Source: a virus
IMG/VR virus record: IMGVR_UViG_3300033571_016203
Coordinates: 1-43,640 of that record
Length of the DNA: 43,640 nt
Strand: one strand, 5' to 3'
The notes under the pieces were generated by a model, which saw only the letters and a list, made by a program, of their open reading frames with translations, did not search any database and had not been told where the DNA came from. A program made the translations under genes and the position numbers. The first letter of the stretch is position 1. The number at the start of each line of letters is the position of its first letter. Below are positions 3,021 through 38,670 of the stretch, piece by piece.

Positions 3021-3045
3021 GCGGAGAGAAATCTCCGCTTTTTTT
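3021..3045 (+). terminator. Rho-independent terminator after gp32
   Basis: Stem GCGGAGA (3021-3027), GAAA tetraloop (3028-3031), complementary arm TCTCCGC (3032-3038), then seven T residues (3039-3045). It closes the gp32 transcript. The T-tract overlaps the stop codon of the convergent minus-strand gene. The minus strand downstream of the stem offers only a weak U-tract (TTTC), so termination in that direction is doubtful. Confidence 0.93.
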
Positions 3046-5692
3046 ATGATAATGTGTTATGTGGTGTTCTGACTGCCATAGTATTATCACCCATAGGTTC
3101 AGAGAAACTCGTTGATAGTGCATATGCTCTACCTATTCCAGGATTTTCTGATTTCAATGGTGACTCAAGCCTATAATTAAAGTTCTCACTAGATGGCAGT
3201 GCTATTGGTGCTATTTGTTGTGGATAATAAGGTTGTCTTTCATTCATGCCATTGTTGGGTTGAGCATCAGCTTGAGCATATTGATTTCTTGGCTCTAGTT
3301 CAGCTGGATTTGTTCTTTGATTTATGACCTCAGGCATTCTATTTGAGTTTTGAACTAGCTGTTCGTCATAATTCATTGTTGCCACAACTTTGCCGTGTGC
3401 ACCTTTTCCAGTATCAACAATCTGAAGTGGTTCACCTGTTACATTTGAAAGTTGTCCACCAAATTCATTATTTTGAGGCACATCACCTGGTCTAAGCTGT
3501 TCTTCTTTTGGTTGTGCTTTTGGCGCTTGAGCAGGCTCTGCTGTTGGTTGAACTGATTGTTGTTGTGGTTGAGATTCAACAAGAGGTCTTTGTCCTCTTG
3601 GTGTTTGTGTATTATTTGGATCCATTGGTGCTGGAGAAACAGGTCTTTCTGGACTTGCAGCAGATGCTGCTGGTGATGCCGTTGGTTGTGCTGTAGCAAG
3701 AGGTGCTCCTGGTCTATATCGAGCATTTTCTGGTGCTGGTTCTTGTGTGAGAACTTTTTGAGCTGGAGAGACGGGTGCTTGCTCTTGTTTTGGTGTTACC
3801 TGTTGTCTTTGTTCTTTTTCTCTCTTAATTCTCTCACGAACAGAAGCATCATATTCTTCTCTTTCTTTAGCAGTCATAGCCATTGGCTCAGTAGGTTGAC
3901 CTCTCATATTAGGAAATCTAAAGTTTTTAGGCAAACCTGTTTCAAAGTTATATGCACCGCTTGTTTGTGAACCTACACCTGGCTGAACTATTTGATAATG
4001 CATTGGATCAGCTGGTCCAGCTGCTGGACCTGACCATGCACCACCCCAAATAAACTTATCTTTTGGATACAATTCTTGAGCACGAATGTTGGCTGATCTA
4101 TGCAATTGTTCATAAACTTTCCAACCTGGACTATTTCTATCATGTGGTAATGCTTTACCCTTTTCGTCATATATTATGACATCCATAGCAAGTCCACCTG
4201 GATGATTTTTAGTTCCTGTTTTTCTTTCGTCTGCACCTGAAATCATTTCTGCTCTATAACCAGGAGGCAAATCTTTAGATGCATCTTTCATAACATGAAT
4301 CAATTTAGGATGCAAGATATTATTTCCATTACTGAGTTTTCCACCAGCATGAAACAATCTTTCTTCACCACGAGATAATTGCTCAGCAGTATATTCTCTC
4401 TGAATTTTTGGTATTGGTAGACCAGATTGTTTTACTGCTTCAACACCAGCTTTATTGCCAGGAATTACATCTAATTGTGGTCTATCTCCTTCTGAAATTA
4501 GTTTGTTTGTTTTATCTTCTATTTGCTGTGGAGTATATTGTTTAAAGTATTCGTTTGTCTTGTCAACACCTTCGTTTGCAATCAGTTCTCTGAATCTTGC
4601 CTGTTTTTCTGGCTGATCTTTAAGTTTGTTGTATTCATCAACAATCTTTGGATCTAATCCTTCAGGTAATGTATCGGGAACTTTTTTCTTTTCAGTTTCT
4701 GGTTTTTGACCTGTAGCTTGTTCTGAAGACACAGGTGCTTTTTCCATGTCTTTTTGTTTTTGTGTTTGTATTTGTTCTCTTATAACTTCTGGAAAAATTT
4801 TTTCTAAGTTGCCAGAAGGACCTTTCGCAAACTCTGCTCTTGCGACTTCAGGACGATCTTTCAATCCAAACCATTGTCCTTGCATTGCTCGTCTAGCAGC
4901 TTCATATGCCTCTGGTTTTCCAGATGCTAGTCCTTCATAGACAGATGGATATTTTCTTTTTAGGTATTCATGCATTGCCAAAGTTTGTTGTTCAACAGTT
5001 GATGTTCCATTTTGACCACCACCATGAAGATGTTTTGCAATCTCAGGAGGAACACCTCTTTTAATTGCATCACGAACATCTAAAGCATTTGTTTGATAAT
5101 ATCCATAATCTGCACCATCTTGACCATATTTTCTTACATTAGCATTATTTCTTGCTTGATTTAGTGCTTCTGAATATGCTTCTTTTCTACGCAATCCAGT
5201 TTCAGTCATTGCAAGTCCACGAAGAAAAGCGAGCTGATTAGGATTTATATCTTTTAAAGAACCTGAATATGCACCAGCTTTTTCATTTTGAGGAAAATTT
5301 GCTTGATTTTTTTTAGTTTGTATTTTCTCTAAGTAATCGAAAAATGAGTTTTCTCTAGCAACCTGAGATTGCTTGGGTTGTGGTCTTTGTTGGTCACCTG
5401 CTCTTGGCACTGGAGTAGCTGTTGGCGCCGTGCCAGAAGGACCAGTACTAGGACCAGTAGATGGTTGGTCAGCGCCAGTAGTGCCTCTTGTGCCTCCACT
5501 TACTGCTTTACCTATGTCTGGCAACTGTTGAAGATAGTACTTTGGAAATAGTTTGGCCAATTCTGTTGGAGTCAGACTTTCAATGTAGCTTCCGCCACCT
5601 TGTTTGAAAAACTCAATCCTGTCTTGAACAGTTAAGTTCATTAACTGTCTCCAACTGATTGTCAAATTTTTTGTGTCTATCTTTCTTGCCAT
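3044..5692 (-). CDS. virion peptidoglycan hydrolase: transglycosylase-like plus M15-type peptidase
   Basis: 882 residues. The N-terminal 50 residues are helical, followed by a Gly/Pro/Thr/Ser linker (about 60-110). A lysozyme-like domain at about 115-300 has the candidate catalytic Glu164 in AMTETGL and DYGYYQTN (195-202), which resembles the E...GxxQ layout of lytic transglycosylases. A second domain at about 430-570 has NHPGGLAMD (His497, Asp504) and DPMHYQIV (His565), the zinc-ligand layout of M15/VanY-type D,D- or L,D-peptidases. The last 280 residues are Pro/Gln-rich and probably disordered. It probably works in the tail to cut both glycan and peptide during DNA entry. The spike protein encoded elsewhere in the window has no lysozyme domain, so this gene may fill that role. 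It is last in the minus-strand baseplate operon. Domain calls are by motif only. Confidence 0.75.
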   Translation of the reverse strand: MARKIDTKNLTISWRQLMNLTVQDRIEFFKQGGGSYIESLTPTELAKLFPKYYLQQLPDIGKAVSGGTRGTTGADQPSTGPSTGPSGTAPTATPVPRAGDQQRPQPKQSQVARENSFFDYLEKIQTKKNQANFPQNEKAGAYSGSLKDINPNQLAFLRGLAMTETGLRRKEAYSEALNQARNNANVRKYGQDGADYGYYQTNALDVRDAIKRGVPPEIAKHLHGGGQNGTSTVEQQTLAMHEYLKRKYPSVYEGLASGKPEAYEAARRAMQGQWFGLKDRPEVARAEFAKGPSGNLEKIFPEVIREQIQTQKQKDMEKAPVSSEQATGQKPETEKKKVPDTLPEGLDPKIVDEYNKLKDQPEKQARFRELIANEGVDKTNEYFKQYTPQQIEDKTNKLISEGDRPQLDVIPGNKAGVEAVKQSGLPIPKIQREYTAEQLSRGEERLFHAGGKLSNGNNILHPKLIHVMKDASKDLPPGYRAEMISGADERKTGTKNHPGGLAMDVIIYDEKGKALPHDRNSPGWKVYEQLHRSANIRAQELYPKDKFIWGGAWSGPAAGPADPMHYQIVQPGVGSQTSGAYNFETGLPKNFRFPNMRGQPTEPMAMTAKEREEYDASVRERIKREKEQRQQVTPKQEQAPVSPAQKVLTQEPAPENARYRPGAPLATAQPTASPAASAASPERPVSPAPMDPNNTQTPRGQRPLVESQPQQQSVQPTAEPAQAPKAQPKEEQLRPGDVPQNNEFGGQLSNVTGEPLQIVDTGKGAHGKVVATMNYDEQLVQNSNRMPEVINQRTNPAELEPRNQYAQADAQPNNGMNERQPYYPQQIAPIALPSSENFNYRLESPLKSENPGIGRAYALSTSFSEPMGDNTMAVRTPHNTLS

Positions 5693-28466: not shown

Positions 28467-30014
28467 ATGTCTAATACAGTAATTCAAATCAAGAGAAGTA
28501 GTGTAACGGCCATTCCACCCAATGGAAGTCTGGCTGCTGGTGAGCTTGCTGTCTCTTATACATCAAATACTATATTTGTCGGTACTGCTGACGGCACAGG
28601 TGTTATTCCTGTTGGTGGTGGTGTTTACATTGACAGAATCAATGCTATTTCTATCACAGCAAATAATGGTTTAGATGTAGCAATATCAGCGTATAATAAA
28701 GCTAACGCAGCTAATCTTCTAGCATTCAACACTGGTCTTGGTGCAAACGCTTTTGCTGCTGCAACAGTTGCAGGAGCTAATGCTGCTGTCGGTGCTGGTG
28801 CTAACGCTTTTGCTTCTGCTACAATAGCTGGTGCTAATACAGCCGTTGGTACGGGAGCAAATAACTACCTTCTAGCAGTCATTGCAGGAGCTAATACCGC
28901 TGTTGGTGGTGGTGCTAATGCGTATATGATTGCTGTTCAAAATGGATCTAACACAGCAGTTGGTGGTGGTGCTAATGCATTTACATCTGCTACTATCGCT
29001 GGAGCTAACACCGCTGTTGGAACAGGTGCTAACAACTATCTTCTAGCTGTGATTGCAGGTGCTAATACTGCTGTTGGTGCTGGTGCAAACAACTATTCAA
29101 ATACAACATTCCTAAAACTAACAGGCGGAACAATTTCCGGTGATCTCGTTGTTCAAGGGAACACTACTTTTTCTGGAAATGTTACCTATGCTAATACTCA
29201 GACACTTCTGATTGGTGATAATATTCTATCACTCAATGCTGACTTGCCAACAAACGTTGCCCCATCCGAAAATGCGGGTCTTGAAATCAATCGTGGGTCT
29301 TCTTCTAACGTATATCTACTTTGGAATGAAGGAACAGATAAGTGGCAGTTCAATGAAGGTACTGTTTATTATAATATTCCAACAAACACTTCTGTTGAAA
29401 CAGCACAAACAATTGCAATCAATGCTTATGACAAAGCAAATGCTGCTAACGTTCTAGCATTCAATACAGGTCTTGGTGCAAACGCTTTTGCTGCTGCCAC
29501 AATTGCTGGTGCTAATACCGCTGTTGGTGGAGGAGCAAACGCATTCACATCTGCCACAATAGCAGGAGCTAACACAGCAGTTGGAACTGGTGCTAATAAT
29601 TACCTTCTAGCTGTTATTGCTGGTGCGAATACCGCAGTGGGTACAGGCGCCAATAACTACATGATTGCTGTTCAGAACGGTTCAAATACAGCAGTCGGTG
29701 CAGGAGCTAACGCTTTTGCTTCAGCAACAATAGCAGGCGCCAATTCTTATTTGATCTCGATCATAGCGGGTGCTAATACTGCTGTTGGTGCAGGTGCAAA
29801 CTCTTATGCATCAAATATAGATAATATTACATCTGGTATTCTTGATGTTCAATTTGGTGGTACCGGACGTAATACACTTGCAAACAACGGTGTTCTATTC
29901 GGTAACACAACAAGTGGTTTGAGAGTAACCGCAGCAGGTACTGAAGGACAAGTGCTACAAGCAAGTGGTCAAGGCACACCATTCTTTGGAGACCTAGACG
30001 GAGGCACGTTCTAA
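28467..30014 (+). CDS. tail fibre with 19-residue repeats, 515 aa
   Basis: 515 residues. Mtd_N-like head (MSNTVIQIKRSSVTAIPPNG, then LAAGELAVSYTSNTIFVG, about 1-50). Residues about 75-210 and 320-450 are two arrays of a 19-residue repeat (IAGANTAVGTGANNYLLAV type), split by a beta domain (LKLTGGTISGDLVVQGNTTFSGNVTYANTQTL to EINRGSSSNVYLLWNEG). The C-terminus (DGGTF) ends in FGGTGRNTLANNGVLFGNTTSGL, a common fibre tip sequence. Likely a trimer. GGGAAA lies before the ATG as a weak ribosome binding site. Confidence 0.85.
   Translation: MSNTVIQIKRSSVTAIPPNGSLAAGELAVSYTSNTIFVGTADGTGVIPVGGGVYIDRINAISITANNGLDVAISAYNKANAANLLAFNTGLGANAFAAATVAGANAAVGAGANAFASATIAGANTAVGTGANNYLLAVIAGANTAVGGGANAYMIAVQNGSNTAVGGGANAFTSATIAGANTAVGTGANNYLLAVIAGANTAVGAGANNYSNTTFLKLTGGTISGDLVVQGNTTFSGNVTYANTQTLLIGDNILSLNADLPTNVAPSENAGLEINRGSSSNVYLLWNEGTDKWQFNEGTVYYNIPTNTSVETAQTIAINAYDKANAANVLAFNTGLGANAFAAATIAGANTAVGGGANAFTSATIAGANTAVGTGANNYLLAVIAGANTAVGTGANNYMIAVQNGSNTAVGAGANAFASATIAGANSYLISIIAGANTAVGAGANSYASNIDNITSGILDVQFGGTGRNTLANNGVLFGNTTSGLRVTAAGTEGQVLQASGQGTPFFGDLDGGTF
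28689..29096 (+). repeat. 19-residue (57-base) repeat array, first half
   Basis: About seven units with period 19 residues, of the form xAGANTAVGxGANxYxxAx (for example TAVGTGANNYLLAV and TAVGGGANAYMIAV). Codons differ between units although the peptide is nearly constant. A second array of the same type lies at 29421-29814. Confidence 0.85.
29421..29814 (+). repeat. 19-residue repeat array, second half
   Basis: About seven further units, beginning with AYDKANAANVLAFNTGLG and running to TAVGAGANSYAS. Same period and motif as the first array, with units ending YLLAV, YMIAV, FTSAT, FASAT and YLISI. Confidence 0.85.
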
Positions 30015-30030
30015 CAGATAGGAATATATT

Positions 30031-30537
30031 ATGAGTGATCCAAATAAGTTTATCAATACCTATATCGATGTTGCAATGGCCACTATTCACGAACAACTGA
30101 GTAGTGGTCTGCAACTCAAAACTCAACTTAGATTGACTAATGATGTTATTGCAGAAAAAGATAGAGTAATTGCTTCTCTGAATACTGAAATTGAAAATCT
30201 AAAAAAGCAAAGTGAAGAATTACAACAAGCAAAAAATAATGATAATACACAACTAAACAGTGAATTAGAACAAGCAAGAAATAATGCTCGTGTTTGGGAA
30301 GAATCTCATAATGTGATGAAGAATAAGGTTGCACATATGGACACTCTACTCAAACAGGTTGTGGATATGAAGCATGAAATTCAAACTCGTGATGCGACAA
30401 TTCAAAGTCTAAAATCTGAAATTGAAGAATTGAAAGAACCTAAAGCAAAACCAACAATCAAGAAAAAAGCGTCAGATAAAAATCTTCTAAATACAATAAG
30501 TATTCTAGAAGAAACATCAAAGATTGACGACTTTTAA
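30031..30537 (+). CDS. coiled-coil fibre-region protein, 168 aa
   Basis: 168 residues, nearly all helix. From about residue 30 to 140 it reads as a coiled coil (AEKDRVIASLNTEIENLKKQ, then QQAKNNDNTQLNSELEQARNN, then KHEIQTRDATIQSLKSEIEELKEPK) with a short lysine/proline break near 145 and a tail ISILEETSKIDDF. It lies between two repeat fibres and its stop shares bases with the next start (TAATG). Similar coiled-coil proteins occur in the fibre region of marine T4-like phages. A chaperone or fibre shaft role is possible but unproven. Confidence 0.78.
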   Translation: MSDPNKFINTYIDVAMATIHEQLSSGLQLKTQLRLTNDVIAEKDRVIASLNTEIENLKKQSEELQQAKNNDNTQLNSELEQARNNARVWEESHNVMKNKVAHMDTLLKQVVDMKHEIQTRDATIQSLKSEIEELKEPKAKPTIKKKASDKNLLNTISILEETSKIDDF

Positions 30538-32462
30538 TGCCAAACACAGTTATTGCACTTAAAAAATCTTCTACACCCTCTGCGGTACCCAGCAATCTTG
30601 CAAATGGTGAGTTGGCAATCAACTATGCCGACGGTAAACTATTCTATAAAAATACGGCTGGATATATTGCTGAAATCTCAGGTTCTGGTAATAATACACC
30701 TGTTTCTGGAGACAATTTTGGAACAATCAATGCATCAGGAACACTTATCGTTGCTGATACGACAAATGATGTTCTAACATTTATTGCTGGTGACAATATT
30801 GCTATTACTGGTGATGCAATCAATGATACAATTACTATTTCAGCAACTGGTGTAATTACTCCAGCTGATATTGGTCCTGCTTTTGATAAAGCTAACTCAG
30901 CAAATATAATTGCTTCACTTGCTTATGATAAAGCCAATGCTGCAAACGTACTTGCATTCAACACTGGTCTTGGTGCTAATGCTTTTGCTGCTGCGACAAT
31001 TGCTGGAGCAAATACTGCTGTTGGAACTGGTGCTAATGCATTTACATCAGCTACGATTGCTGGCGCTAATACAGCAGTTGGTACAGGTGCTAATAATTAC
31101 TCAAATTCAGCATTCGTAAAACTTACTGCACCAAATCAAACAATAACTGGTGATCTAGCGATTGCTGGAAATCTTGTTCTTAGCGGTAATACAGTATTTG
31201 CGAATGTGTCAACTCTAAGAATTGATGACCCACTACTTTATCTTGCAGGAAACAATTATACATCCGACATTGTTGATATTGGTTTCATTGCCAACTATGT
31301 AAACTCTACTGGTCAAAATGTTCATACAGGCCTCTTCAGAGAGCATAGTAATAAAAGATACTATCTATTCCAAGAATATAATCAAGAACCCGTCAATAAT
31401 CATATAGATCCAACAGCAAACGGCTTCACACTTGCTGTATTGAATGCTGATCTTATAACAAGTAATCTTGTTCTTGGTGGTGCAAATCTTATAACCACGT
31501 TGAGTGGAACTAATACAGCTATTGGTGCAGGTGCCAATGCTTTTGCTTCAGCTACAATTGCTGGTGCTAATTCATATTTAATTTCGATTATAGCAGGTGC
31601 AAATACAGCAGTTGGAACAGGTGCTAATAATTATCTTCTAGCTGTTATCGCTGGTGCTAATACTGCTGTCGGTGCTGGTGCCAATAATTACATGATTGCA
31701 GTACAAAATGGTTCAAATACTGCTGTCGGTGCTGGTGCTAATGCTTTTGCTTCAGCAACAATAGCAGGTGCTAACAACTATATGACTGCTACAGTTGCTG
31801 GTGCTAATACTGCTGTCGGTGCTGGTGCTAACGCTTTCACGTCTGCTACGATTGCTGGAGCTAATACTGCTGTTGGAACTGGGGCTAATAATTATCTTTT
31901 GTCTGTTATTGCAGGTGCTAATACAGCAGTTGGTACTGGTGCAAATAACTATATGATTGCTGTACAAAATGGTTCAAATACCGCTGTTGGTGGTGGTGCT
32001 AATGCATTTACGTCTGCAACTATTTCGGGTGCCAATTCTTATCTAATTTCAATTATAGCTGGTGCTAATACCGCTGTTGGTGCAGGTGCTAATGCTTTTG
32101 CTGCTGCTACAGTTTCTGGTGCAAATACAATTGCAATAGCAGCTTTCAATGCAGCAAATGCTGCTGGCGGTGGTCCTGCTTTTGATAAAGCAAATGCGGC
32201 AAACATTATTGCTTCATTGGCATATGACAAAGCTAATGCTGCAAACGTTTTAGCGTTCAATACTGGTATTGGTGCAAATTCTTGGTCTAATACAAAACTA
32301 TCAAACTCAACAGTAACTCTTGCTGGTTCACTAACAGCAACTGGCAACGTTATTGTTCTTGGCAATAATTACTTTGGTCATGCAAATGCCACAGGTACAC
32401 TGAAGTTTTATACATATTATAACGTAACATCAAATAGCGTGGATACTATTTTCAATGGGTAG
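30537..32462 (+). CDS. tail fibre with 19-residue repeats, 641 aa
   Basis: 641 residues. Mtd_N-like head (MPNTVIALKKSSTPSAVP, then LANGELAINYADGKLFYKN). Repeat arrays at about 115-190 and 325-590, with an internal beta domain (LVLSGNTVFANVSTLRIDDPLLYLAGNN-like, then HTGLFREHSNKRYYLF) between them, of the same type as in the 515-aa fibre, so the two share a module. Units alternate YLLAV, YMIAV, FASAT, YLISI and FTSAT ends. The C-terminus ends FYTYYNVTSNSVDTIFNG, and the next gene starts inside it. Likely trimeric fibre shaft. Confidence 0.85.
   Translation: MPNTVIALKKSSTPSAVPSNLANGELAINYADGKLFYKNTAGYIAEISGSGNNTPVSGDNFGTINASGTLIVADTTNDVLTFIAGDNIAITGDAINDTITISATGVITPADIGPAFDKANSANIIASLAYDKANAANVLAFNTGLGANAFAAATIAGANTAVGTGANAFTSATIAGANTAVGTGANNYSNSAFVKLTAPNQTITGDLAIAGNLVLSGNTVFANVSTLRIDDPLLYLAGNNYTSDIVDIGFIANYVNSTGQNVHTGLFREHSNKRYYLFQEYNQEPVNNHIDPTANGFTLAVLNADLITSNLVLGGANLITTLSGTNTAIGAGANAFASATIAGANSYLISIIAGANTAVGTGANNYLLAVIAGANTAVGAGANNYMIAVQNGSNTAVGAGANAFASATIAGANNYMTATVAGANTAVGAGANAFTSATIAGANTAVGTGANNYLLSVIAGANTAVGTGANNYMIAVQNGSNTAVGGGANAFTSATISGANSYLISIIAGANTAVGAGANAFAAATVSGANTIAIAAFNAANAAGGGPAFDKANAANIIASLAYDKANAANVLAFNTGIGANSWSNTKLSNSTVTLAGSLTATGNVIVLGNNYFGHANATGTLKFYTYYNVTSNSVDTIFNG
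30879..31104 (+). repeat. 19-residue repeat array, first half of 641-aa fibre
   Basis: About four units from AFDKANSANIIAS and AYDKANAANVLAF to TAVGTGANNYSN. The last unit runs into a non-repeat beta segment. Confidence 0.8.
31512..32295 (+). repeat. long 19-residue repeat array in 641-aa fibre
   Basis: About fourteen consecutive units, the longest run in the window. Unit ends occur in mixed order: FASAT, YLISI, YLLAV, YMIAV, FASAT, YMTAT, FTSAT, YLLSV, YMIAV, FTSAT, YLISI, FAAAT. This order resembles the arrays of the other fibre genes. Confidence 0.85.
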
Positions 32463-33110: not shown

Positions 33111-34364
33111 ATGGCTAAACTTTTAGACGGCACAAGAGTATACGGTTCTTTCACAGCAAATACTGCGGTAATTGCGGGCACACTAAACGTTGCTCCTGCG
33201 ATAGCGTCGTCTTATGATAAAGCCAACTCTGCCAACGTCCTAGCATTCAATACAGGTGTTGGCGCAAATGCTTTTGCTTCTGCTACTATCGCTGGTGCTA
33301 ATACAGCAGTTGGTGGTGGTGCAAACAATTATCTTCGTGCAATTATTGCAGGAGCAAACACTGCTGTTGGAGGTGGTGCTAATGCTTTTACCAGTGCTAC
33401 CGTAGCAGGAGCTAATACTGCTGTAGGAACAGGAGCAAACAATTATCTTCTAGCGGTCATCGCCGGTGCAAACACAGCAGTTGGTACAGGTGCTAATGCT
33501 TTCACTTCTGCTACGATTGCTGGTGCTAATACCGCAGTTGGTACTGGTGCCAACAATTATCTCTTAGCTGTTATTGCAGGAGCAAATACTGCTGTTGGAA
33601 CAGGAGCAAACAATTATCTTCTAGCAGTTATCGCTGGTGCCAACACTGCTGTTGGCGGTGGTGCCAATGCATTTACATCAGCAACAGTTGCTGGTGCTAA
33701 TTCTTATCTAATTTCTATTATAGCTGGTGCAAACACAGCAGTTGGTGCAGGTGCAAACACATGGGCTAACACTAAACTAGCCAATACATCTGGTGTTTCT
33801 TTCAATGGAAACTTATTTTTCCCAACAGGCAACGTTGGTATTGGAACAAGCACATCTACTTATAAATTGACCGTATCTGGAAACGTAGGAATCACTGGCA
33901 CCAACGTTCTCAGAATGGCGTCTGATCTAAACAATCCACCATACATTAAGGGTCATTGGACAGATAACAACAACTCCGGTTTAGAGTTTCATGTTTTCAA
34001 TAACACAGTAGACACAACATCATTATATCTTTCTATTGGAGGCAACGTTGGTATTGGAAGAACAAGTGCTGGATATAAACTAGACGTAGATGGAACTGTC
34101 AATGCATCTGCATATCTTGTAAATGGAACACCATTATCAGCATCTGTACCTTCTTATAAACTCACATTCGGCGATGGTTCTGCAAACTCATATAACATCA
34201 ATCACGCACTGAATACCACAGATGTTGTCGTTGCTGTCAAAGAAGTTTCTACCGGCTACTATGTGTATCCAGACGTAAAAACAACCACAGCAAATCATGT
34301 TGTCATCGAGTTCGTTGTAGCACCTACGACCAATCAATATCGAGTGATTGTGATAGGGACATAA
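33111..34364 (+). CDS. tail fibre with 19-residue repeats, 417 aa
   Basis: 417 residues. No Mtd_N head; it starts MAKLLDGTRVYGSFTANTAV. Repeat array about 33-220. Then two 'NVGIGTxxxxYKLxVxG' elements (GNVGIGTSTSTYKLTVSGNV and GNVGIGRTSAGYKLDVDGTV) of the kind that precede many phage fibre C-terminal domains. The C-terminal domain (YKLTFGDGSANSYNINHALNTTDVVVAVKE to QYRVIVIGT) is a known small beta tip found in many fibres. AAGGA lies before the ATG. Two bases separate it from the first propeller gene. Confidence 0.86.
   Translation: MAKLLDGTRVYGSFTANTAVIAGTLNVAPAIASSYDKANSANVLAFNTGVGANAFASATIAGANTAVGGGANNYLRAIIAGANTAVGGGANAFTSATVAGANTAVGTGANNYLLAVIAGANTAVGTGANAFTSATIAGANTAVGTGANNYLLAVIAGANTAVGTGANNYLLAVIAGANTAVGGGANAFTSATVAGANSYLISIIAGANTAVGAGANTWANTKLANTSGVSFNGNLFFPTGNVGIGTSTSTYKLTVSGNVGITGTNVLRMASDLNNPPYIKGHWTDNNNSGLEFHVFNNTVDTTSLYLSIGGNVGIGRTSAGYKLDVDGTVNASAYLVNGTPLSASVPSYKLTFGDGSANSYNINHALNTTDVVVAVKEVSTGYYVYPDVKTTTANHVVIEFVVAPTTNQYRVIVIGT
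33209..33767 (+). repeat. 19-residue repeat array in 417-aa fibre
   Basis: About ten units starting at SYDKANSANVLAFNTGVG and ending TAVGAGANTWAN. Same period and motif as in the other fibres, with units ending YLRAI, FTSAT, YLLAV and YLISI. Confidence 0.85.
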
Positions 34365-34365
34365 C

Positions 34366-35502
34366 ATGGTTGAACGTAATATCATCTCACCAAACTGGCA
34401 GGAAGATGTATTAGAAGTGCAGAATGGTGTGCTGCCTAAAGGTGATGATAGTGGTATAAGCTCTTCTTTGGCTGAGTGGTATAACTTTCAGTTGATGCTT
34501 GAAAAAAGCAGAGATGCTGGTTTTGTATTTACCACTGATGTTGTTAGCACATATTCGTTGGTTTATACTGCTTCATCCGCATACATTGGTGGTGTTTTGG
34601 CTCCTAACGGTGACATTCACTTTGTTCCATATAATGCTGATAGAGGACAGGAGATTGCTGCGGATGGAACAATCTCAACATATGCTCTAGTCTACACAAC
34701 AGCTTCCGCTTATACTGGTGGTGCATTGTTACCTAATGGCGAAATACATTTTGTGCCTTACAACGCAAACAGAGGACAAGAGATTTCTGCTTCTGGAGTG
34801 GTATCAACATATTCATTAGCATATACTACAGCAACTGCATACATCGGTGGTGTTGTTTCTCCTTCTGGTGAAATGCATTTTGTTCCAGCAGGTGCAGCAG
34901 TAGGTCAAAAACTCAGTTCAACAGGAACTGCGTCAACATATGCACTCGTTTATACATCATCTGCTGCATATGCTGGAGGAGTATTGTCTCCAACTGGCGA
35001 AATTCATTTTGTTCCTTTGAACGCTAATAGAGGACAGAAAGTTGCAGCTAACGGCACTGTCTATACGTATGCGTTAGTTTATACAACAACATCTGCTTAT
35101 CAAGGTGGAGTGATTGCACCAAACGGTGATATTCACTTTGTTCCAAGAAGTGCAGCAGTAGGACAGAAGATCGATATATCAGGCACTGTTTCTACGTATT
35201 CTTTAATTTATACTACAACAAACGCATATTCTGGTGGTGTTTTGGCACCTTGTGGTGATATTCATTTTGTTGTGTATTTCGCAGACAGAGGACAGAAAAT
35301 TGCAGCTAACGGAACTGTGTCAACATATTCAGTTCCATATACAAATGCGGGTGCAGCAAACTACGGTGGGGTGCTTGCGCCCAATGGTGACATCTATTGG
35401 GTTGCTTCTGGTGCAGCAGATAGAGCACAAAGAATACACACACAGGTAGCCATACCATTTGATTTAGGAACTTGTTCTAGTCCGTGGTTGAATAAGTTTT
35501 AG
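34366..35502 (+). CDS. seven-repeat beta-propeller protein, paralogue 1 (378 aa)
   Basis: 378 residues. A 59-residue N-terminus (NIISPNWQEDVLEVQNGVLP, then AEWYNFQLMLEKS) is shared with the next two genes. Residues 60-358 hold seven repeats of 43 residues, each with the form VSTYxLxYTxxxAYxGGVLxPNGxIHFVPxxAxRGQxI. One blade per repeat would give a seven-bladed propeller. The C-terminus ends SPWLNKF. The repeat 'GGVLAPNGDIHFVP' recalls propeller proteins of other organisms. No catalytic motif seen, so a sugar- or receptor-binding role at a fibre tip is likely but inferred. Confidence 0.82.
   Translation: MVERNIISPNWQEDVLEVQNGVLPKGDDSGISSSLAEWYNFQLMLEKSRDAGFVFTTDVVSTYSLVYTASSAYIGGVLAPNGDIHFVPYNADRGQEIAADGTISTYALVYTTASAYTGGALLPNGEIHFVPYNANRGQEISASGVVSTYSLAYTTATAYIGGVVSPSGEMHFVPAGAAVGQKLSSTGTASTYALVYTSSAAYAGGVLSPTGEIHFVPLNANRGQKVAANGTVYTYALVYTTTSAYQGGVIAPNGDIHFVPRSAAVGQKIDISGTVSTYSLIYTTTNAYSGGVLAPCGDIHFVVYFADRGQKIAANGTVSTYSVPYTNAGAANYGGVLAPNGDIYWVASGAADRAQRIHTQVAIPFDLGTCSSPWLNKF
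34543..35439 (+). repeat. seven 43-residue repeats, paralogue 1
   Basis: Seven copies, each with an SxxYxLxY strand, a GGVL strand and a G(D/E)IHF strand, spaced by 43 residues (129 bases). The last copy is the most divergent (GDIYWVASGAADRAQRI). Copy number equals that of the next two genes. Confidence 0.88.
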
Positions 35503-35509
35503 GATATAG

Positions 35510-36646
35510 ATGACAGATATTTTCAAACAATCACCAAGTTGGGTAGATGAAGTAAAAAGAAAAGGTTGGGGTGTACTGCCTACAGCCAACAACAATTCTA
35601 TCGACTCTGCTCTCACTGCTTGGTATAAGTTTCAAAGTCTGTTGCAGAAAAGCACTATTTCAGGTAAGCTATATTCAACTGATGTTGTTAGTACGTATTC
35701 ATTGATTTATACTGCTTCATCAGCATATCGTGGTGGTGTTCTTTCACCAAATGGTGATATTCACTTTGTTCCTGCTTCTGCGAACAGAGGACAAGAAATT
35801 AGTGAATCTGGAACAGTGTCAACGTATGCTCTAGTCTATACCGCTTCAGGTGCTTATTGGGGCGGTGTTCTAGCTCCCAATGGTGATGTTCATTTTATTC
35901 CTGCACTAGCAAATAGAGGACAAAAAGTATCGGCATCTGGCGTAGTTTCGACATATGCTCTTGTTTATACAAATACAGTAAACATTGCCTATGCTGGCGG
36001 TGTTCTAAATCCTTCTGGTGAAATTCATTTCGCATCTTTCAATGCTGATAGAGGCCAAAAAGTTGCTGCTAATGGATCAGTGTATACGTATTCATTAGCA
36101 TATACTACTGCATCGGCATATATTGGTGGTGTTCTTTCACCAAGTGGTGATATTCATTTGATACCTGCTAGTGCAGCAGTTGGACAAAAGATCGCAGCTA
36201 ATGGTTCAAGTTATACTTATTCATTAGTTTATACCACAGCTTCAGCATATAATGGAGGCGTCCTGGCTCCTAATGGTGACATCCATTTTGTACCTACCAG
36301 TGCAGCAGTGGGACAGAAAATATCAGTTACGGGCACGGTATCAACTTATTCATTACTCTACACAGCATCAACTGCATATGAAGGTGGAGTTCTAGCACCA
36401 AATGGCGAAATTCATTTTGTGCCTGCATCTGCAAACAGAGGTCAAAAGATTGCTGCTAATGGAACAGTATCAACTTATGCTTTACCATATACAGTCAACT
36501 TTGCTTATTATGGCGGAGTTCTATCACCAACAGGTGATATAGAATTGATTCCTAACAGTGCGAATAGGGGACAAAGAATACAGATACAATCAGCAAATCC
36601 ATTTGATAAATCAACTAGACTATCTCCATGGTTCAATAAATTTTAA
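35510..36646 (+). CDS. seven-repeat beta-propeller protein, paralogue 2 (378 aa)
   Basis: 378 residues, the same length as paralogue 1. N-terminus MTDIFKQSPSWVDEV, then GVLPTANNNSIDSALTAWYKF. Seven repeats from residue 60 to about 357. Repeat 3 has a small insertion (NTVNIAYAGGVL). The last repeat has GDIELIPNSANRGQRI, and the C-terminus ends SPWFNKF. It follows paralogue 1 with a 7-base gap, so the two are cotranscribed. Confidence 0.83.
   Translation: MTDIFKQSPSWVDEVKRKGWGVLPTANNNSIDSALTAWYKFQSLLQKSTISGKLYSTDVVSTYSLIYTASSAYRGGVLSPNGDIHFVPASANRGQEISESGTVSTYALVYTASGAYWGGVLAPNGDVHFIPALANRGQKVSASGVVSTYALVYTNTVNIAYAGGVLNPSGEIHFASFNADRGQKVAANGSVYTYSLAYTTASAYIGGVLSPSGDIHLIPASAAVGQKIAANGSSYTYSLVYTTASAYNGGVLAPNGDIHFVPTSAAVGQKISVTGTVSTYSLLYTASTAYEGGVLAPNGEIHFVPASANRGQKIAANGTVSTYALPYTVNFAYYGGVLSPTGDIELIPNSANRGQRIQIQSANPFDKSTRLSPWFNKF
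35687..36580 (+). repeat. seven 43-residue repeats, paralogue 2
   Basis: Seven copies with the GGVL-PNGxIHF core. Blades 4 and 5 share SAAVGQKIAANGS-type ends, and blades 1, 6 and 7 have SANRGQ ends, so segments look shuffled among blades. Confidence 0.88.
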
Positions 36647-36655
36647 GGTAATGGA

Positions 36656-37798
36656 ATGACAGACACTTATAAAATGTCGCCCAATTTCAAAAATGAAGTG
36701 AAAAACACACTTCAGTGGACTTTGCCGACATCTGATAACAATGCTATTGATTCTGCACAGACCGCATGGACACAATTTGATAAGTTGATCGATGAGAGTG
36801 TGCAGGCAGGTAAATTATTTACGAATGACATTGTGAGCACATATTCTGTTCCTTATACGGTATCAAATGCATATCGAGGAGGTGTTATAGCACCTAATGG
36901 TGATATACATTTTATGCCTGCAAATGCAAACAGAGGACAAAAGATTGCAGCTAATGGAACTGTGTCAACATATTCTTTAGTATATACAGCAACACAATCT
37001 TACGCTGGTGGTGTTCTAGCTCCTAATGGTGACATTCACTTTGTTCCTTACAATGCAAACAGAGGTCAAAAAATTGATGCAAGCGGTACAGTATCAACAT
37101 ATTCATTAGTCTTTACATCATCACAAGCATATTTTGGTGGTGCTCTAGCCCCAAATGGAGAAGTCCATTTTATACCTGGAAATGCGAACAGAGGTCAAAA
37201 GATTGCTGCTAATGGTTCCGTCTACACGTATTCTCTAGTTTATACGACCGGTCTTGCTTATTATGGAGGTGTTCTAAATCCTGCTGGTGAAATTCACTTT
37301 GTACCTTTTCAAGCAAACAGAGGTCAAAAGATTGCTGCTAATGGTTCCGTCTACACATATTCTCTAGTTTATTCGGTAGGGTTAGCGTATGCTGGTGGTG
37401 TTTTAGCCTCTAGCGGAGAAATTCACTTTATTCCCTATAATGCTAATAGAGGTCAAAAGATTGCAGCAAATGGAACAGTCTACACATATTCCCTAGTATA
37501 CACTGAAAGTAGTGGATATTCAGGTGGTGTTCTAGCTCCTAATGGTGATATTCACTTCGTACCATATGGCATTAGTAGTGCTAGAGGTCAAAAAATTGAT
37601 GCAAGCGGTACAGTATCGACGTATTCGATTTTACACACAAATACATCTGGTGCTTATTCTGGCGGTGTTCTAGCTCCTAATGGTGACATTCATTTTATAC
37701 CATTCGTTGGTAATAGAGGACAGAAAATACACACTAATTCTGGTCTTAATTGGAGTCTCGGAGTAGTATCACATTCATTTTTCAACAATAGATTCTAA
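36656..37798 (+). CDS. seven-repeat beta-propeller protein, paralogue 3 (380 aa)
   Basis: 380 residues. N-terminus MTDTYKMSPNFKNEVKN, then TLPTSDNNAIDSAQTAWTQF, homologous to the other two. Seven repeats from residue 60 to about 358, with two-residue insertions in blade 6 (PYGISSARGQ). The C-terminus (GVVSHSFFNNRF) differs most from the other two. Blades here are the most uniform (NANRGQKIAANGTVYTYSLVY recurs), suggesting the most recent internal duplication or gene conversion. Confidence 0.83.
   Translation: MTDTYKMSPNFKNEVKNTLQWTLPTSDNNAIDSAQTAWTQFDKLIDESVQAGKLFTNDIVSTYSVPYTVSNAYRGGVIAPNGDIHFMPANANRGQKIAANGTVSTYSLVYTATQSYAGGVLAPNGDIHFVPYNANRGQKIDASGTVSTYSLVFTSSQAYFGGALAPNGEVHFIPGNANRGQKIAANGSVYTYSLVYTTGLAYYGGVLNPAGEIHFVPFQANRGQKIAANGSVYTYSLVYSVGLAYAGGVLASSGEIHFIPYNANRGQKIAANGTVYTYSLVYTESSGYSGGVLAPNGDIHFVPYGISSARGQKIDASGTVSTYSILHTNTSGAYSGGVLAPNGDIHFIPFVGNRGQKIHTNSGLNWSLGVVSHSFFNNRF
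36833..37729 (+). repeat. seven 43-residue repeats, paralogue 3
   Basis: Seven copies, the most uniform of the three. Near-identical DNA joins blades 3/4 and 4/5 (GGTCAAAAGATTGCTGCTAA occurs twice), and a GGTCAAAAAATTGATGCAAG stretch occurs in blades 2 and 6, a sign of recent exchange. Confidence 0.86.
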
Positions 37799-37836: not shown

Positions 37837-38670
37837 ATGTACAATCGTGACAAGATCATCAAAGCACTACATGAAATCAAAGAAGAGAGTGAGCAAATTG
37901 GACCATATGTTGTTGTAGCACAGCCTCGACGTGACAAGAACGAAACACCGGCACAAACGTTTAGAGGTCATGGCACAACACATATGGACATGACTGGTTA
38001 CAGCACAGCGTTCATTGACATCTCTGGTGAGAAAGTTGACGTTGCTAGAAATTACTTGATCGACAGAGTTCTAAACGACTCAAATGCCAAGTATCTCTTT
38101 TTCATTGGCGACGATACTGTCGTTCCATTTGATGCTTTCAAGAAGCTACATAAGACATCACTGGAAAATCCTCGTGCTGTTATTGTTGGTGTGTATTACA
38201 TGAAGTGCAGTGACGTTATGATCATGGTACGCACAGAAGACAATCATATTATTCCTGCTGATGTGACACCAGGTCAACTAATTGATACATGGCAAAGCGG
38301 TATGGACTGCATGTTGATTCCTGTAGATTTGCTGAGAGAGATGAAAGAAAAAGAACCCGATTTGCCTTGGTGTTGTGTTGCAAATGGTATTGAAGATTTG
38401 CCGTTCGTGGGTGAAGACAATTTCTTTGTCTACAGACTGAGAAAGCATAACATCAAACTTCTGTGTGACACAAACGTTCAGTGCTTGCATATGGATCTTG
38501 CTACAGGTAAATACACAGCACATCCAAGTGTTGATTTGAAAAACTATTATACAAACATCAAGCCAACGGAACCACTTACGTTCCAAGATAAAGATTATAT
38601 CGACAAACGTTGGATTGACAGATTACCAAAGGGCAGTGCCCCATGGGAAGAGACAAAGACTCAGGAGTAA
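37837..38670 (+). CDS. glycosyltransferase-like protein, GT-A fold, 277 aa
   Basis: 277 residues. GT-A features: a first strand with VVVAQPRRD, helix VDVARNYLIDRVLNDSNAKY, then FFIGDDTVVPFDAF, where GDDTVVP (91-97) takes the place of the DxD nucleotide-sugar and metal site, and 'AVIVGVYYM' after it. Later WQSGMDCMLIPVDLL and GEDNFFVYRLRKHNIKLLCDTNVQCLHM are typical of the acceptor part (ED before FFVYRLRKHN, then H). It sits in the fibre region, not with DNA-modification genes, so it may modify fibres, surface sugars or a host glycan. The donor sugar is not known. AGAGGTG precedes the ATG. Confidence 0.75.
   Translation: MYNRDKIIKALHEIKEESEQIGPYVVVAQPRRDKNETPAQTFRGHGTTHMDMTGYSTAFIDISGEKVDVARNYLIDRVLNDSNAKYLFFIGDDTVVPFDAFKKLHKTSLENPRAVIVGVYYMKCSDVMIMVRTEDNHIIPADVTPGQLIDTWQSGMDCMLIPVDLLREMKEKEPDLPWCCVANGIEDLPFVGEDNFFVYRLRKHNIKLLCDTNVQCLHMDLATGKYTAHPSVDLKNYYTNIKPTEPLTFQDKDYIDKRWIDRLPKGSAPWEETKTQE

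Follow-up and report, generated by a model that had tools for sequence, protein, structure and literature searches.

Fast-varying recognition proteins of phages are known mostly through retroelements, invertible segments and tip swaps. The literature on phage propellers accessible without subscription yielded only a few proteins: PMC4901313 names together the five-bladed phi11 protein, PRD1 P2 and the seven-bladed phiKZ gp131C, and to these are added the nozzle propellers of SU10 and T7. Outside phages, the HNWD/het-e WD40 proteins of Podospora carry four selected codons per repeat, located in the d-a and b-c loops on the top face, and their repeats are reshuffled within and between genes (PMC1805685). 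We analysed three adjacent genes on the plus strand (positions 34,366 to 37,798) of a 43,640-nucleotide stretch of viral DNA, IMG/VR record IMGVR_UViG_3300033571_016203, hereafter the window. These genes probably encode three virion adhesins that a T4-like phage maintains together, with a recognition face that recombination renews. In the literature accessible without subscription, we found no account of a phage system that combines three anchors, each specific to its class, with hypervariable rings that can be exchanged.

The three genes are arranged head to tail with spacers of 7 and 9 bases. Gene 1 (34,366 to 35,502, 378 aa), gene 2 (35,510 to 36,646, 378 aa) and gene 3 (36,656 to 37,798, 380 aa) each encode a 59-residue N-terminal block, seven repeats of 43–45 residues and a tail of about 16–18 residues. 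The N-terminal blocks (34,366 to 34,542, 35,510 to 35,686 and 36,656 to 36,832) were assigned by tree to classes a, b and c, respectively. The repeat regions span 34,543 to 35,445, 35,687 to 36,595 and 36,833 to 37,741. The tails, delimited by the repeat cut and, for gene 1, listed together with those of relatives, span 35,446 to 35,499, 36,596 to 36,643 and 37,742 to 37,795, and end in SPWLNKF, SPWFNKF and SFFNNRF. When the repeats were cut from motif to motif, 19 of the 21 were 43 residues long and two (B3 and C6) were 45; a one-residue insertion was found in A7 and C7. The coordinates, gene sizes, tails and seven repeats per gene given in an earlier reading of this DNA (the original prediction) were all correct on re-cutting. 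The repeat motif that it described was present, but its start varies (VST, YTY or SYTY) and V often replaces the R of "RGQ".

A DNA repeat period of 129 nt ran in register through all three genes. The paralogues in the window shared 57–61% overall identity, with 31–47% in the N-terminal block, 73–76% in the blade framework and 18–22% at the hypervariable positions described below. The seven-repeat pattern is not due to chance, as a blade profile found exactly seven repeats in 152 of 166 distinct complete open reading frames (ORFs) of relatives; the exceptions were multi-ring, split or short ORFs.

We predicted the structure of the gene 2 product using AlphaFold2 with 136 homologues, which gave a model of 28 strands with a pLDDT of 92.5 and a pTM of 0.89. 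The N-terminal block formed two helices (residues 9–20 and 36–51). A single strand (residues 59–63) was followed by six sets of four strands and by three strands at the end, suggesting that the first strand completes the last blade. The model obtained with three sequences only was poor (pLDDT 55), and the low-confidence model of gene 3 matched the streptogramin B lyase 2qc5 with a TM of 0.89 in Foldseek. The nearest solved folds were streptogramin B lyases, with TM values up to 0.89–0.90 by target length. A closed seven-bladed ring, with closure between N- and C-terminal strands, is therefore well supported as a prediction by the strand layout, the pLDDT and the Foldseek match; for gene 1 the fold is extended from the gene 2 model. 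The original prediction had proposed such a ring, and had named an open fold or a freely varying repeat number as evidence against it; the predicted ring was closed with high confidence, and the repeats came in sevens.

The predicted proteins resemble the receptor-binding protein of phi11, for which the accessible part of PMC4901313 describes a helical N-terminal part, a propeller with a putative sugar cavity and ring closure by an N-terminal strand. According to the same part, the phi11 protein differs in having five blades and in forming a homotrimer from one gene of a Staphylococcus siphophage, and a hypervariable face is not mentioned there. phiKZ gp131C (PDB 4GBF) is likewise a seven-bladed propeller, located at the baseplate periphery of a myophage (as cited in PMC4901313). 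The phiKZ genes gp131–gp135 also form a tandem run of paralogues, but these have N-terminal parts in common with gp131, and the blade repeat studied here was not found in gp131–gp135. The phiKZ proteins showed no detectable sequence relation and were rejected as homologues.

We then compared variability among 1197 distinct blades. Columns 10, 11, 12, 15, 30, 31 and 33 had an entropy of 2.8–3.8 bits, and most other columns were below 1 bit. The identical seven columns were hypervariable in every one of the seven blades. In the gene 2 model, they map to two loops, d-a and b-c, and to the beginning of strand a; in propellers, both loops are on one face. The a-b loop on the other face was conserved, and the c-d loop was moderately variable at columns 40–41. 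The ring is thus a natural scaffold with seven hypervariable residues per blade, 49 in total, presented on one face of a near-invariant framework. No identical site was repeated among the seven blades, and the face identity of random blade pairs was 15%. The original prediction had raised the question of whether blades group by number across the paralogues. They did not: framework identity was 0.868 between same-numbered and 0.844 between different-numbered blades, and face identity was 0.164 and 0.165, respectively. Position-wise orthology of blades had little signal and was set aside.

A scan of viral contigs identified 141 relatives, and the 76 best-scoring loci were fetched. Gene counts were taken from the 47 loci with at least 1.4 kb of flank on either side: 41 contained three genes, three contained three genes with the last one split, two contained a pair and one contained a single gene. 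In records of 161–238 kb, propeller copies occurred only in the triplet cluster. The homologue search and copy number proposed with the original prediction thus showed the triplet in most of these loci, with repeats in seven or multiples of seven. In one locus (L063, from G013), three consecutive ORFs had 14, 20 and 27 detected repeats, which we read by eye as 14, 21 and 28, i.e. two, three and four rings, counting one degenerate blade in each of the last two ORFs. In the same region (L084/L063, G013:C1 28000–44000), the three propeller ORFs in a row are 810, 1078 and 1452 aa long, with two, three and apparently four rings, respectively. A second, long-type lineage has an N-terminal region of 144 residues, versus 60 in the short type, in which a fibre-type module precedes the same helical block.

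Exchange of propellers between anchors was evaluated in both lineages. The N-terminal blocks of 16 short-type triplets fell into classes a, b and c, and their tree required two class changes, which is the minimum, with the class label of one locus (L005, gene order b-a-c) assigned after the tree had been seen. The propeller tree of the same genes required 23 changes, compared to 22.6 with shuffled labels. In the long-type lineage, the tree of N-terminal regions required four class changes (27 with shuffled labels), the extra two arising from the sub-clade L062/L064 with permuted order, whereas the propellers required 22 (27 with shuffled labels), a weak residual signal. The class order was permuted in L062 and L064 of the long lineage and in L005 of the short lineage, and thus the three genes form a fixed set without a fixed order. 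Mean identity by gene order was also tried as an orthology test; it was uninformative because the order is permuted in some loci and the propellers are decoupled from the anchors. The original prediction of a triplication of one adhesin holds in that the triplet is tandem and old. The genes are not three recent copies, since the N-terminal blocks belong to three classes that are old and conserved separately, and the propellers act as exchangeable cassettes.

Close relatives showed the same decoupling. Between L014 and L016, the N-terminal blocks were 83–95% identical and the downstream gene 96% identical, and face identity was 4%, 90% and 22% in genes 1–3. The corresponding face identities between L016 and L018 were 90%, 35% and 98%. 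Between L035 and L076, the face was only 7–11% identical in all three genes, with N-terminal blocks at 89–93% and flanking genes at 92–98%. Overall, face identity was 30% or less in 41 of the 51 protein pairs whose N-terminal regions were at least 95% identical. Silent sites of the framework changed together with the face, indicating that whole stretches were replaced rather than single codons mutated. This result is based on codon-column comparisons, which were used in place of a gap-optimised DNA identity table that was discarded owing to its random baseline near 75%.

Exchange was also visible at a finer scale. Near-copy blades differing almost only at the face codons were found in gene 1 of L008 (blades 3 and 4) and gene 3 of L009 (blades 2 and 6). 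Gene 3 of L014 and L015 differed at 20 bases, mostly in three short clusters, and two of these patches have counterparts within the same genome, one in gene 2 (blade 1) and the other in gene 3 itself (blade 2). In gene 2 of L065 (5704–7080) and L059 (5704–7092), blades 1–3 were 100% identical, blades 4–7 were 67–72% identical, and the tail was switched to the class 3 tail; judging from the sequences of this mosaic, genes 2 and 3 seem to have crossed over in register. Within-locus identity at silent sites exceeded that of codon-usage shuffles in 38 of 38 loci.

By analogy, the closest functional parallel is the HNWD WD40 proteins. Both have near-identical propeller repeats, and the variable residues of HNWD lie in the d-a and b-c loops, as do the phage columns. 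Exchange and homogenisation of repeats are common to both, being represented in the phages by the silent sites of the 38 loci, the within-gene blade copies and the swaps. HNWD proteins differ in that they are fungal self/non-self receptors built of WD40 repeats, and positive selection is established for HNWD only. Repeats in the phage family, unlike those of HNWD, come in a fixed number of seven.

We propose that each adhesin would consist of a short helical class-specific N-terminal anchor, a rigid propeller with a conserved framework and a conserved tail. With frameworks so nearly identical, homologous recombination or gene conversion could exchange blades, groups of blades or entire propellers, and do so in register, which would preserve the count of seven. 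Such exchange would renew the recognition surface without harm to assembly. We infer receptor binding from the variable face and the position of the genes in a baseplate and fibre cluster; virion location and hetero-assembly are also inferred, and a heteromeric tip of the three adhesins is possible. A more specific version is tentative, and we would sooner doubt than assert it: the anchors would be three class-specific sockets taking any ring from a large shared pool, blades would be the reshuffled units, and combinatorial host recognition would arise by recombination alone, with no dedicated mutator and with all three adhesins required in one mixed assembly. Here a fixed-blade repeat scaffold seems to vary by plain recombination, in three parallel genes and in many uncultured phages. 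This offers a testable route by which host range could change in nature, and it parallels the self/non-self receptors of fungi.

Several points weigh against renewal of an adhesin face by recombination. The fetched loci are only the best-scoring part of the relatives. Three genes are not an absolute rule, as shown by the two loci with a pair and the one with a single gene (L020, L036 and L046). In alignable allele pairs, pN/pS was 0.46 for the face and 0.17 for the framework, both below 1, and a higher face value, 1.26, came from saturated comparisons with columns preselected for variability. The match of the L014/L015 patch to its donor, blade 1 of gene 2, is short, with six informative bases. 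The data are metagenome assemblies, in which strains or paralogues may be joined at repeats, and the L059/L065 mosaic is possibly an assembly artefact, with contig ends nearby.

The face pN/pS in close allele pairs, which does not exceed 1, would suit a purely structural role, in which the propeller is a knob, the face loops are unconstrained and the variation is neutral with incidental recombination. We consider this unlikely. Replacement of the face extends to silent sites of the framework, whereas N-terminal blocks, tails and neighbouring genes stay at 83–98% identity. Loops as such are not free to vary, considering the conserved a-b loop and the merely moderate variability of the c-d loop. 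In addition, three copies with a fixed blade number are kept across lineages.

The rings might instead decorate the virion as general-purpose surface binders, attaching to abundant glycans, mucus or particles rather than to a specific receptor, so that the phage stays close to cells. Sugar binding is known for seven-bladed lectins (PMC6943638), and in some relatives the propeller proteins carry an additional domain, LamG lectin-like in L008 and glycine-rich in L036. However, a general binder does not need a face that is randomised between near-identical phages, and the seven blades have no identical site in common; this explanation appears rather improbable to us.

Assemblers misjoin at repeats and in mixed strains, and the apparent swaps could be chimeras between strains or paralogues. 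The joint in gene 2 of L065, whose contig ends just downstream, fits such an origin. As an account of the swaps in general, it is quite improbable: the face is replaced in nearly all close pairs (the 41 of 51 above), in two lineages with different N-terminal regions, and on long contigs where the triplets are ordered and the seven-blade frames intact. The diversity of the propellers must itself be real.

A diversity-generating retroelement (DGR) or another targeted mutator would account for the many substitutions confined to seven columns and for the few blade pairs that differ almost only there. No RVT_1 match was found in 20 related records of 62–238 kb, which are possibly incomplete and do not include the window, with controls positive in three genomes, making a retroelement an unlikely source of the variability. 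All three codon positions vary, and CAA, TGG and GCT codons occur, unlike the pattern of adenine-specific mutation of AAY codons. Variable codons were present in every blade, and silent framework sites changed as well. A DGR was thus disfavoured on both grounds, the reverse transcriptase search and the codon pattern, and we regard targeted mutation as very improbable.

The virginiamycin B lyase family PF24684 matched all three genes above its cut-off of 50 (65.9, 58.4 and 66.8 bits for genes 1–3), and phmmer matched the solved lyases 2qc5 and 2z2n. The lyase (Vgb) and the phage proteins share a seven-bladed ring with similar repeats (TM 0.89). The register between lyase columns and repeat columns was hand-counted from the phmmer alignments. 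In this register, column 29 falls on what we take to be the position of the catalytic glutamate; none of 1507 family blades has E there, and the window blades have mostly P. The hypervariable column 15 coincides with the active-site histidines of the enzyme (H270; the 2z2p title gives the mutant H270A), and H was found at this column in 14 of the 1507 blades and in none of the window. Column 13 in the window blades is A, S or G. NCBIfam Vgb models scored 54–72 bits, far under their cut-off of 600. The phage proteins further differ from Vgb in their far more repetitive framework, N-terminal anchor and tail, tandem triplet and hypervariable face. Despite the family match and the shared fold, it is hardly credible that these are phage-borne enzymes of the streptogramin B lyase family, a reading rejected in view of the absent catalytic residues and the NCBIfam scores.

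Among named phages, only two Cylindrospermopsis phages matched the family, at about 35% identity; the one that was examined had seven repeats and an LNKF tail, as in the family. Gene g13 of Cr-LKS4 (L081:3556–6948) is annotated as hypothetical; its product closes with seven nearly identical GGVLAPNG repeats, which vary around columns 15 and 30–33, and with an LNKF tail. Because of these repeats and this tail, it probably carries a cyanophage version of the propeller tip. It differs in being a single gene of 1130 aa with an unrelated N-terminal part, 44-residue repeats and about 35% identity. A scan with the cyanophage repeat yielded one further contig only. In a scan of genome contigs, no cellular homologue was confirmed.

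Some relatives have modified propeller genes. In L072 (8294–10571), and also in L047 and L069, an insert breaks gene 3 within the d-a loop of blade 5. It encodes a glycine-rich stretch, with which the first ORF ends, and a separate ORF without a Pfam match that is sulfotransferase-like by eye; the last blades carry on as a 136-aa ORF. The split propeller may still be working, as the pieces look conserved; no Rfam match to introns was obtained at the split-gene loci. A LamG lectin-like domain precedes the propeller in gene 3 of L008, as identified by Pfam, and a similar one was seen by eye in gene 2 of L073. The glycine-rich domain of L036 lies ahead of the propeller in gene 2. In gene 3 of L050 and L070 and gene 1 of L079, a repeat region before the propeller resembles another propeller.

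In the window, T4-type baseplate genes (gp6-type wedge, tail tube cap and hub) are located upstream of the triplet; by gp6, the nearest phages were those of Methylophilales and Pelagibacter. The window is a fragment; in a search over relatives, the gp23 capsid family was found in 8 of 16. A scan for promoters and terminators gave no clear signal, with promoters not above shuffled sequences. Downstream of the triplet is a glycosyltransferase-like gene (37,837 to 38,670, plus strand), matched by phrog_34859 (1.9e-7). It adjoins the triplet in all eight relatives checked and is 96–98% identical among close relatives. The gene immediately upstream (33,111 to 34,364, plus strand) encodes a repetitive protein, a probable fibre shaft, whose C-terminal domain, matched by PHROG 8309 and 2647, is common to phage virion proteins. 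This protein and another fibre-like protein (30,537 to 32,462) contain tandem "AGANTAVGTGANNYL" repeats (57/114/261 nt). Among relatives, the upstream neighbour of the triplet has often diverged strongly (33–40% identity), even where the downstream neighbour is still at 96–97%.

Two further proteins of the window were observed. A 515-aa protein (28,467 to 30,014) matches the N-terminal domain of Mtd at residues 6–39, but below threshold (19.5 bits, cut-off 26.3). On the minus strand, an 882-aa protein (3,044 to 5,692) without a PHROG match shows a weak match to M15 peptidase at residues 496–568.

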